A stretch of DNA of 64,000 bases from contig JAFRJK010000005.1 in NCBI GenBank assembly GCA_017432305.1, positions 1 through 64,000 on the forward strand. The letters run 5' to 3'. Position numbers and translations under genes: made by a program. The notes beneath the pieces are model-generated. The model saw only the letters and a list, made by a program, of their open reading frames with translations, searched no databases and was not told the DNA's origin. This DNA comes from Candidatus Saccharimonadota bacterium (GTDB lineage: Bacteria; Patescibacteriota; Saccharimonadia; Saccharimonadales; Saccharimonadaceae). Shown here in pieces: positions 1 through 54,358 of the stretch (positions within the stretch are counted from its first letter, which is position 1; each line of letters starts with the position of its first letter).

Positions 1-29
1 CGCTTTTTTCAATGGAAGATAAATTGGGT

Positions 30-236
30 TCAGTGCTTTTCTACGCAACGGATAGACCACCCCAAACCTCTACTATCAACGCCTAACGGCCAAACATAAA
101 CCGACGTACCCGCATTATAACTGACTGCATTTGCACTATTTGCATCAGGAGCATACGACGTCCACCCAGTACCGCGGTCCAAACGTGATACGATGTAGCC
201 ACGACTCCGCCAATAAACCCCACCCCTCCAAAAATA
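30..236 (-). pseudogene. Silent FISUMP-like C-terminal cassette A
   Basis: On the minus strand this reads as a 68-codon domain beginning FWRGGVYW and ending GWSIRCVEKH then stop. The pattern (Gly/Trp-rich start, aromatic middle, closing G-[FW]-S-x-R-C-V) resembles the FISUMP / C-type-lectin-like repeats of surface proteins. A stop codon (237-239) lies just before the conserved start and there is no start codon, RBS or promoter, so it cannot be expressed as it stands. It shares its first 16-17 bases with cassettes B and C. I infer a silent donor cassette or gene remnant; the family name rests on motif recognition only. Confidence 0.6.
219..235 (-). repeat. Cassette-start repeat, copy A
   Basis: Minus-strand copy of the sequence ATTTTTGGAGGGGTGGG that opens each cassette and encodes F-W-R-G-G. 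17 bases are identical to the copies at 289-309 and 660-680; just upstream this copy diverges (TTGAT instead of TTGG). Candidate recombination site. Confidence 0.7.
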
Positions 237-288
237 TCAACAGAGCAACTTTAAGTTTATAGGTAAACTTATCAGAAATAGTGTTCTC

Positions 289-309
289 TTGGATTTTTGG
301 AGGGGTGGG
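289..309 (+). repeat. Cassette-start repeat, copy B (inverted relative to C)
   Basis: 21-bp sequence containing TTTTTGGAGGGGTGGG, identical to the reverse complement of 660-680. Copies B and C thus form a perfect inverted repeat around 310-659, the arrangement expected of an invertible segment. Confidence 0.8.
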
Positions 310-498
310 TTTTATGCTTATTCTAATGGCTCAATTCATGACCGTTCAAATCGTGGATACTGGCAGGGGCGTGAAGCTACTACTAGCGACTTTAGCCATC
401 GTTTTAATACTGATATTAGCGATGGGCGTTCACATGTTTGGCCTACAGGTAACCAGCGTAGAGCTCATGGGATGGCTATCCGTGCGCAACGGAGTTGA
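289..498 (+). pseudogene. Silent FISUMP-like C-terminal cassette B
   Basis: Plus-strand reading frame of about 69 codons starting LDFWRGGFYAYSNG and ending GMAIRAQRS then TGA. Its shape matches cassettes A and C, but the conserved Cys of the closing R-C motif is replaced (R-A), because the end is fused tail-to-tail with cassette C. No convincing RBS or ATG start precedes it. A second frame (281-517) is open but has none of the domain's motifs. Interpretation as a silent cassette is inference. Confidence 0.55.
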
Positions 499-659
499 AA
501 ACCTTCGCCTCTACTGAAGGCGCCTGGATCATGGACATAGCCATAGCCACCAGCATTAGAACCAAAATTAACTGCCATACTACCACTAGTGGACCTACCA
601 GCCCAAAAATAGCTGAAGCCAGTACGAGTGACAACTCCACCACTGTTACGGGCATAATT

Positions 660-680
660 CCCACCCCTCCAAAAATCCAA
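660..680 (-). repeat. Cassette-start repeat, copy C
   Basis: 21-bp inverted partner of 289-309; marks the start of cassette C on the minus strand. It lies only 32 bp from the glf start codon, so recombination here would change the sequence immediately upstream of the glf promoter. Confidence 0.8.
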
Positions 681-699
681 CGGAGTAAAATAGCTATGA

Positions 700-705
700 T
701 ATAAT
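700..705 (+). promoter_or_regulatory. Extended -10 promoter of glf (leaderless)
   Basis: TATAAT preceded by TGA (TGnTATAAT). The glf ATG begins 7 bases after the hexamer, the expected transcription start, so the mRNA probably begins with the start codon. No RBS is visible. Confidence 0.65.
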
Positions 706-711
706 TTAGAC

Positions 712-1872
712 ATGGATTATACGAAGTTTGATTTAATTGTGGTGGGGGCGGGATTTTATGGAGCTACAGTCGCAGAACGTGCGGCTTCCGAGAACAAAAA
801 AGTTTTAGTAATTGACCGACGAGAGCATCTTGCGGGAAATGCGTATTCTTATAAAGACGAGAAAACTGGAATCGAAATCCATAAATATGGCTCACACATT
901 TTCCATACCGAAGATGAAGAAGTTTGGAATTATATTACAAAGTTTACCGAATTCAACGATTACATTCATACTGTACCAACACGCCACGCAGGAAAACTTT
1001 ATCCAATGCCGATTAACCTTGATACAATTAATTTGCTTTATGGAACGAACATGGACGCAGAGGAAGCAGAAAAGTTTGTAGCAAGCGAGGCAGAAAAAGC
1101 TGGGATAAAAAATCCGAAAAACTTTGAAGAAAAAGGGATTTCACTTGTTGGAGAAAAACTCTATACGACGTTTATTAAAAATTATTCCGAAAAACAATGG
1201 TCGACATCCGCAACGAATCTTTCGGCAGAGATTTTATCAAGAATTCCAGTTCGCTATTCGCATGATGATCGTTATTTCATGACCGCAAAACACCAAGGTA
1301 TTCCAGTTAATGGTTATGGAAAAATTGTTGAGAAAATGTTAGATAACGAAAACATCGAGGTAAAACTCGGAGTGGATTTCATCGCAATTATGGACGAAAT
1401 TCCAAACGATAAGCCAATCATCTATTGTGGGCAAGTTGATGAGTTGCTTGATTATGAACTAGGTGTGCTTCCTTATCGTTCCCTACGTTTTGAAGCAGAA
1501 TGGGTAGACGAAACAACTGAGGAAGGTGCAGATTCAAAACTTGGACATGCTGTTATCAATGAGGCTGATGCAGATGTCGCTTATACGAGAACGCATTTCT
1601 ATAAATATTATCAAATCCATGAACCAGAAGTGATTAAACAGCCAAAATCTTACGTCGTGCGTGAATATCCAGCAGATTTTAAGCGGGGTGGCGAGGCATA
1701 TTATCCGATTAACAATGAAGAAAATGAAAAATTATACAACGACTATGTTAAACTCTTAAGCGAGCGTTATCCAAGCATTATGCTTGGTGGTAGGCTTGGG
1801 GCTTATCAATATTGGGATATGGACAAAGCAATAAAGAACGCTCTCGAGTTTTATAAGAATCTAACAATTTAA
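712..1872 (+). CDS. glf: UDP-galactopyranose mutase
   Basis: Flavoenzyme that interconverts UDP-galactopyranose and UDP-galactofuranose in the cytoplasm, supplying Galf for surface glycans. The 386 residues fit the family (about 370-390). Visible are the FAD-binding start VVGAGFYGATVAE (residues 10-22), the second FAD segment R-R-E-x-L-A-G-N-A-Y near 36-45, and KYGSHIFHT (58-66) with the conserved His region. The start codon sits at the predicted transcription start of the promoter at 700-705. The next gene, a glycosyltransferase, starts 1 base after the stop, so the two are probably cotranscribed. With galE in the same region, a Galf-containing polymer is plausible. Confidence 0.95.
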   Translation: MDYTKFDLIVVGAGFYGATVAERAASENKKVLVIDRREHLAGNAYSYKDEKTGIEIHKYGSHIFHTEDEEVWNYITKFTEFNDYIHTVPTRHAGKLYPMPINLDTINLLYGTNMDAEEAEKFVASEAEKAGIKNPKNFEEKGISLVGEKLYTTFIKNYSEKQWSTSATNLSAEILSRIPVRYSHDDRYFMTAKHQGIPVNGYGKIVEKMLDNENIEVKLGVDFIAIMDEIPNDKPIIYCGQVDELLDYELGVLPYRSLRFEAEWVDETTEEGADSKLGHAVINEADADVAYTRTHFYKYYQIHEPEVIKQPKSYVVREYPADFKRGGEAYYPINNEENEKLYNDYVKLLSERYPSIMLGGRLGAYQYWDMDKAIKNALEFYKNLTI

Positions 1873-53041: not shown

Positions 53042-54358
53042 ATGAGTATAAAAGACAAGGTTACAGATCATATTCCAGGGTATAATAAGGCGATTTTGCC
53101 GTACCATCTTTTAAAGGCGGAGGTTTCGGGGGTAAAATACGGATTTCCAGGTAAGAAAATGACGGTGATTGGGGTAACAGGAACAAACGGAAAGACTTCG
53201 ACCTCGTTTATGATTTGGAAGATGCTTAATAATTCTGGGCGAAAGACTGGATTGATGACAACGGTAGCTTGGGGTGGACTTTCGGAAATGGTTGGGAAGC
53301 CGGGGGATTCGGGTTCGAGAGAGGGCGATAAAGACGGTTTACATAAGCAATTAAAACACATGACGACGGTTGACTCGATGACGCTTAACCGAAGGATGAA
53401 AACGATTTTAGAGACGGGTGCGGAGTACTTAGTTTTAGAAGTGACATCGCACGCGATGGTGCAATTTAGGACGCTTGGGATTCCGATTGAGATTGCGGTG
53501 ATGACGAATGTGACGCATGAACACTTAGACTATCACAAGACGTTTGAAAATTATCGTGACGCAAAAGTTAAGTTATTCAAGAAAGCAAAATATGGAATCG
53601 CGAATGCGGACGACAGGAGCTCAACGTTTTTCATGAATGCAGTTTCGGACGGGACAACTTACGGAATTAATAGAGGTAGGCTTAAGGCGGAGAATATTGA
53701 ACTTTCGGCCGAGGGGGTGAGTTATGATGTCCAGGATATGAGAATTAAAACGAGAATTCCGGGAAAGTTTATGGTCTATAACTCGCTCGCGGCAGTTGCG
53801 GTTGGGCAAAGACTAGGCTTAAGCGAACAAGAGATTTGTGACGGAATTTATGCGCTTGAGTCGGTCGAGGGGAGGATGAATCGAGTTGAAGTTGGGCAAG
53901 ATTTTATGGCGATTGTTGATTATGCACACACGCCGGATGCGTTTTTAAAGGTTTACGAGTCGGTTGCGCCAAATAAAAACGGGCGGATTATCTCGCTGTT
54001 TGGAGGGGCGGGGAGACGTGACGAGACGACGCGGGATGAACGCGGAGAGATTGCGGCGAAATATTCGGATGTTTGTATCATTACGGAAGATGATTCGAGA
54101 GACGAGGATCCGGAGAAAATTGCGAAAATGTTCTTAGTTGGGTGCGAGAGAGAAGGTATGAAACTGGGCGAGGACGTTTTTATTGAGATTGACCGAAAGA
54201 AGGCAATCGAAAAGGCAGTTTCGCTCGCAAAGAAGGGGGATATAGTTTTAATTTTAGGTAAAGGGCATGAAAAAACGATTCTTCGAGACGATGGGCCACA
54301 CCCGTTTGAGGATTTGGTGGAGACGGAGAAGGCGATTAGGAAAGTGCTAGAGAAATAA
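53042..54358 (+). CDS. murE: UDP-MurNAc-tripeptide synthetase (MurE)
   Basis: 438 residues. Adds the third amino acid to the peptidoglycan precursor. ATP loop V-T-G-T-N-G-K-T-S, M-T-N-V-T-H-E-H-L-D-Y-H, E-G-R-M-N-R-V-E and D-Y-A-H-T-P-D-A are all present. The residue-selecting motif DNPR of meso-DAP enzymes is D-D-S-R-D-E-D-P here, so substrate choice is uncertain. The N-terminal UDP-binding domain is shortened. Sits divergent from groSL and is followed by a bidirectional terminator. Confidence 0.93.
   Translation: MSIKDKVTDHIPGYNKAILPYHLLKAEVSGVKYGFPGKKMTVIGVTGTNGKTSTSFMIWKMLNNSGRKTGLMTTVAWGGLSEMVGKPGDSGSREGDKDGLHKQLKHMTTVDSMTLNRRMKTILETGAEYLVLEVTSHAMVQFRTLGIPIEIAVMTNVTHEHLDYHKTFENYRDAKVKLFKKAKYGIANADDRSSTFFMNAVSDGTTYGINRGRLKAENIELSAEGVSYDVQDMRIKTRIPGKFMVYNSLAAVAVGQRLGLSEQEICDGIYALESVEGRMNRVEVGQDFMAIVDYAHTPDAFLKVYESVAPNKNGRIISLFGGAGRRDETTRDERGEIAAKYSDVCIITEDDSRDEDPEKIAKMFLVGCEREGMKLGEDVFIEIDRKKAIEKAVSLAKKGDIVLILGKGHEKTILRDDGPHPFEDLVETEKAIRKVLEK

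Follow-up and report, generated by a model that had tools for sequence, protein, structure and literature searches.

What are three short, headless reading frames doing side by side on alternating strands at the left edge of a Saccharibacteria contig, all beginning at the same repeat? The stretch analysed here (the window, 64,000 nucleotides) makes up the opening 64 kb of contig C2 in a rumen-type genome of eight contigs that is 93% complete. The original prediction regarded the frames as versions of a single C-terminal domain with a common F-W-R-G-G start, and this was confirmed, as frames and positions were all found again (Table 1). The repeat TTTTTGGAGGGGTGGG lies at 219-234 (-), 294-309 (+), and 660-675 (-), and F-W-R-G-G is its in-frame translation in cassettes A, B, and C. 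The inverted 21-bp identity between B (289-309) and C (660-680) is perfect, as described, with 29-nt arms that are 93% complementary, and A does carry 17 of these bases (ATTTTTGGAGGGGTGGG). The stop reported right before the repeat of A is a TGA one codon ahead of it. The statement that no cassette has a credible start needs one small correction: an ATG in frame with cassette C stands 13 codons ahead of it (near 711-713), with no ribosome-binding site visible. B and C meet tail to tail at 486 with a one-base overlap, where B ends in I-R-A and C in L-R-C. Window position 1 is the first base of contig C2, and the array is therefore truncated on the left. The ordinary gene that bounds it on the right has an orthologue in the related genome G027 (C3:288215-289384).

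Table 1. Coordinates of the window array, its right-hand neighbour, and the full-length gene with the same junction (window positions, except where a locus is named)
Feature	Position	Strand	Description
Cassette A	30..234	-	FWRGGVYWRSRGY...IRCVEKH, 67 codons, stop at end
Frozen 5' core, cassette A	218..235	-	ATTTTTGGAGGGGTGGG
A/B head-to-head spacer	235..293	.	one of a 4-member spacer family
Cassette B	294..498	+	FWRGGFYAYSNGS...IRAQRS
Frozen 5' core, cassette B	293..309	+	
B/C tail-to-tail centre	477..495	.	3' palindrome ATCCGTTGC/GCAACGGAT minus one base
Cassette C	about 467-675	-	FWRGGNYARNSGG...LRCARIAIP
Frozen 5' core, cassette C	660..676	-	
Ordinary gene bounding the array on the right	712..1872	+	UDP-galactopyranose mutase-like by inspection
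Full-length gene with the junction	L056:9291-10856, end of contig C8		522 residues; hydrophobic N-terminal stretch

The cassettes belong to a repeat-bounded system that is larger than the window, as had been proposed. The 748-kb genome contains 103 exact copies of TTTTTGGAGGGGTGGG and 120 copies with at most two mismatches (60 per strand). The reversed pattern, used as a control in the same genome with the same tolerance, gave no matches, which confirms that the repeat is far beyond chance. Among 149 relatives from the genus and order, 89 of them from the same genus, no genome carries TTTTTGGAGGGGTGGG. A fourth match in the window, at 53997 with two mismatches, lies within an ordinary reading frame and was taken as chance.

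In the stretches examined, 113 silent cassettes start at the repeat, and 109 of them are open from F-W-R-G-G to an I/L-R-C end. Four are broken, and one further cassette has a decayed repeat (L041:14800-15012). The silent cassettes are headless, measure 60-71 codons, and form an archive of at least 113 members in about 27 places. Neighbouring cassettes are arranged head-to-head (n=40), tail-to-tail (n=34), or, rarely, in direct orientation (n=5). The last codons of tail-to-tail pairs abut exactly or overlap by one base in 31 of the 34 cases, around the palindrome ATCCGTTGC/GCAACGGAT. At ten of these 34 centres (window 486 and nine others) one base is missing, which changes the final Cys of one cassette to Ala (I-R-A-Q-R). 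The frame upstream of the exact sites extends over 1-97 codons and lacks a credible start, with a lone exception of 502 codons. Only one of the 120 repeat sites lies in a long frame. The proposal that the cassettes represent silent alternative versions of a single C-terminal domain is supported. In this reading, the three window cassettes mark one end of a silent archive of alternative C-terminal FISUMP-like domains that extends over the genome. Strong hairpins 3' of the cassette end occur in a minority of the 41 unpaired cassettes, and the hairpin was rejected as a general cassette feature. A viral-contig scan gave no match.

Ends and interiors of the cassettes differ in how they are conserved. 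Median pairwise DNA identity is 53%, and the interiors are saturated. The frozen 5' core is 17 nt long. At the inner edge, conservation falls from 0.91 to 0.41, and upstream of the core the similarity to the expressed gene dwindles across about 12 nt; the frozen 3' end measures roughly 9 nt. FWRGG is encoded by one codon per residue almost without exception, and IRC nearly so, whereas the conserved interior residues Gly12, Arg17, Arg56, and Gly57 use all of their codons (entropy 1.3-2.15 bits). This codon use points to a constraint on the DNA at the ends and on the protein in the interiors. When 45% of interior sites were randomised in a simulation without indels, 16% of cassettes stayed open. 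The observed proportion of open cassettes, despite saturated interiors, thus supports selection for intact frames.

The prediction also called for a full-length gene with exactly the same junction, and such a gene was found at the end of contig C8. The prediction had placed it to the left of the window. It is the sole full-length gene that has the junction, lies on this different contig, and has no cassette array of its own. The gene reads into N-G-A-P-L-D-F-W-R-G-G and matches the cassettes over 16-29 nt at the junction. Its last 72 bases are identical to the first 72 bases of contig C5, onto which it appears to continue, the join being an overlap of two contigs rather than one assembled contig. 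It encodes a surface-type protein and is the single expression site of the archive. Among the nearest named relatives, identified via the expressed protein, are Saccharibacteria genomes from goat duodenum and from the rumen of roe deer. The expressed C-terminal region seems to be FISUMP-related but divergent, with scores below the profile cut-offs: 23.1 bits for Pfam PF09603 (cut-off 33.9), in an alignment that reaches the profile end, and 36.5 bits for TIGR02145 with the C8 part (cut-off 41.65). A Pfam search of single cassettes gave no match. The cassette domains are probably ligand-binding domains of the C-type-lectin fold, an assignment drawn solely from the similarity to FISUMP, as the structure model of the G027 target protein reached a mean pLDDT of 29 (four sequences only). 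A separate gene of 944 codons on contig C1 near 96-98 kb (L066:3800-6631) has two FISUMP matches and lacks the repeat junction.

A diversity-generating retroelement (DGR) follows the expressed gene. Contig C5 contains the remainder of the variable region, an ORF of 331 residues, and a reverse transcriptase, with an AAC-rich template on the opposite strand. The reverse transcriptase matches RVT_1 (37 bits) and the phrog_1423 reverse transcriptase family (E=2e-76), and its closest solved relative is 8ub7_A (E=4e-24), which we take to be the BPP-1 DGR enzyme. All 17 differences between the bodies of the template and the expressed copy are at template adenines, and the remaining differences are at the two repeat ends. 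Reverse transcriptase and adenine-restricted changes together support a DGR at this locus, of which the expressed copy is a pure product. The 331-residue ORF occupies the place expected for an Avd-type accessory protein and has no family match. The same order of target gene and reverse transcriptase is found in G027 (RGIG2239), where the template is located behind the reverse transcriptase, and in RGIG5046. A second copy of the variable region, which is headless and retains 76 bp of the gene sequence upstream, reaches the ends of contigs C6 and C8. The 3' ends of all cassettes are of the type of the expressed copy, the recipient (ATCCGTTGC), and not of the template type (ATTCGTTGT). Between reverse transcriptase and template on C5, an orphan structured DGR tail (GGCGCCGGCCCTAGGGTCC...) with the last variable-region bases and no body was observed (L064:2355-2435); four copies of this tail were found in total.

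Traces of the DGR can be recognized in the cassettes themselves. Variability in the cassettes is highest where the template has AAC or AAT (mean entropy of 3.69 vs 2.26 bits). Some cassette codons at these positions are unreachable by A-mutagenesis of AAC/AAT, so ordinary substitution acted too. Two cassettes near C7:66.5 kb are recently related to the template, with A as the site of 19 of 28 differences in one and of 29 of 46 in the other. They are the only ones among the 109 that resemble the present template, and the remainder are too old to tell. A derivation of all cassettes from the present template by A-mutagenesis alone was rejected, as two fit and the others differ at all bases. Six headless cassettes of the sister species G011 have 22-31 of the template's 56 adenines changed, together with 0-7 of its 142 other bases; one sister-species example has 26 of 56 adenines and none of the 142 other bases changed. 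The cassettes of G071 and G022 range from almost pure adenine change to saturation. A DGR-type origin is thus demonstrated for cassettes in these three sister species and for two cassettes here. In G071, the cassettes follow one another in direct tandem at intervals of about 45 nt (L119:2574-3832, L120:1853-2678), and some frames there traverse several cassettes (up to about 360 codons), making multi-domain products conceivable.

Genome G030 combines about 117 cassettes with one full-length gene (780 residues), and of 95 copies scanned, 88 contain no stop. A reverse transcriptase of any kind was sought in G030 and not found, which indicates that an archive can persist without a DGR. Its silent copies and expressed gene have about 60 bp in common just 5' of the variable part. 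The expressed variable part has no match of at least 18 nt to the silent copies compared, which are a subset of the G030 cassettes. Other genomes of the genus also give many profile matches, and G027 gives just five. Since the matches in G055 are partly full-length genes, match counts alone do not prove an archive.

The reading that we cautiously favour is a DGR-fed silent library of variable domains, from which recombination at the frozen ends would bring variants into the expressed gene. The linked DGR would write new variants by adenine mutagenesis from one template, and copies of its products would become headless cassettes between genes. Occasional exchange of cassettes into the expressed gene would then keep the frames open. 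The recombination would depend on homology and take place at the frozen start (17-29 nt) and the frozen end (about 9-20 nt). Archive and DGR are backed by the data above, and we infer the transfer from archive to gene. A single expression site together with multiple silent partial copies is found here and likewise in G030. The frozen ends are different DNA in each species, which disfavours one fixed-site invertase: homology to the species' own expressed gene predicts such species-specific ends, while conservation of a single site would be the likelier outcome with a fixed-site recombinase. Against a read-out of the archive, the shared ends are short for RecA-type exchange. No expressed allele with an archived cassette was seen in the present genome (G000) or in G030, with one assembly per species. 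It is possible, although we hold this more tentatively, that the whole is a write-and-store system. A retroelement would hypermutate one surface domain, its products would be banked as more than 100 heritable headless cassettes, and the bank, which could outlive the retroelement as in G030, would sustain variation driven by recombination.

The DGR could also write mutated copies into headless recipient sites that have the same 3' mark and 5' start, without any storage function, and the arrays would then be by-products, decoys, or the result of selfish spread. Such ectopic retrohoming would account for the recipient-type 3' ends, for the nearly pure DGR products in G011, and for the two cassettes derived from the present template. 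We regard it as unlikely, as old and saturated cassettes are still open with a conserved framework, G030 retains its mostly stop-free cassettes without the enzyme, and so few cassettes here resemble the present template.

Cassettes and spacers have moved, and the core is where they were reassorted. Head-to-head spacers form families of 21, 7, 4, 3, 3, and 2 members, which are mostly common to different loci and attached to unrelated cassettes. The A/B spacer, for instance, has members of ~97-98% identity in the C1, C2:66 kb, and C5 arrays. A copy of cassette A at the end of contig C5 is 99.5% identical and has a different spacer, the identity beginning at the core. For the two cassettes L042_8695 and L048_8323, the likeness is limited to the 3' two thirds. 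A 130-bp spacer family has perfect internal palindromes (AAAAAGTAAGTTTACTTACTTTTT; CCGTCTA...TAGACGG) and was seen at L038:6746-6878, L042:9170-9298, and L048:7736-7866. In comparison with G027, arrays are cleanly inserted at some sites, such as six cassettes between genes that are about 1 bp apart. With rows in which the cassette itself had been taken as a gene set aside (15 vs 8 arrays), 15 of 23 testable arrays are at synteny breaks, the corresponding figure for other gene neighbours being 45 of 209 (p=3e-5). Measured against wide intergenic gaps (>=150 bp; 19 of 50, p=0.04), the association is only suggestive.

These breaks would suit a shufflon-like inversion, in which a recombinase acting on the 17-bp cores flips tail-to-tail segments and the array of the expressed gene is lost, unassembled, or transient. 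The sharp core and the 34 convergent pairs with inverted cores on their flanks, in shufflon fashion, also favour it. The original prediction of this kind placed partner gene and recombinase to the left of the window, which the data do not support: no expressed constant part is joined to an array, and no recombinase recognizable as a dedicated one is linked to an array. The four recombinases of the genome resemble a Xer protein and mobile-element integrases, and none was recognized as a dedicated array invertase in this 93% complete genome. The core also differs in each sister species, and the G071 arrays are chiefly direct repeats, which leaves inversion distinctly improbable. Two large serine recombinases (L051:5208-6920, L067:5738-7384) are beside helicase- or primase-like genes and look like integrated mobile elements; one of them has an array about 1 kb away. 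Gene ends in decay or an artefact of assembly, to which several contig ends within cassettes and two contig-end pairs with exactly 141 common bases (as k-mer overlaps would have) could point, are very improbable in view of the intact frames, the frozen ends, the clean six-cassette insertion, and the matching design of sister genomes that were assembled independently.

If the library reading is correct, an ultra-small bacterium with a reduced genome devotes some 3-4% of its DNA (about 113 cassettes, each of 200 nt, and their spacers) to a library for one domain. The library looks like a means of changing a surface protein and presumably serves attachment to changing hosts. It would also mark a path from retroelement hypermutation to cassette-based variation. 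This path is testable across the genus, which includes species whose archives are fresh, species whose archives are old, and an archive-bearing species that has no retroelement. As the prediction had stated for Saccharibacteria, no description of such an archive in this group, or of one coupled to a DGR, was found in the open-access literature, to which the search was confined.

Archives for antigenic variation have been described in pathogens, and DGRs in phages as well as in many microbes. The R64-type shufflon (Rci) is similar in that short inverted repeats head convergent alternative C-terminal segments. In the present system, the expressed gene is not adjacent, the arrays have no Rci-like gene, and they are dispersed over the chromosome. 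The DGRs of Patescibacteria are known to form a separate clade (PMC8144416). DGRs of the BPP-1 type and of Patescibacteria DGR clade 2 (PMC8144416) share with the present one the reverse transcriptase, the AAC-rich template, the adenine-only changes in an expressed C-terminal segment, and the recipient/template difference at the 3' end. Here, tens to more than 100 headless copies of the variable region exist besides the expressed one. Neisseria pilE/pilS, Borrelia vlsE, Treponema tprK, and Anaplasma msp2 likewise have many partial, promoterless, open copies with shared conserved ends and one expression site. Cassette interiors are far more diverse here than in vls, where cassettes are about 90% identical (PMC11499132). 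The Saccharibacteria archive further differs from these silent-cassette systems in its more than 110 cassettes at about 27 dispersed loci, in their strict head/tail alternation, and in a DGR that acts on the same segment.
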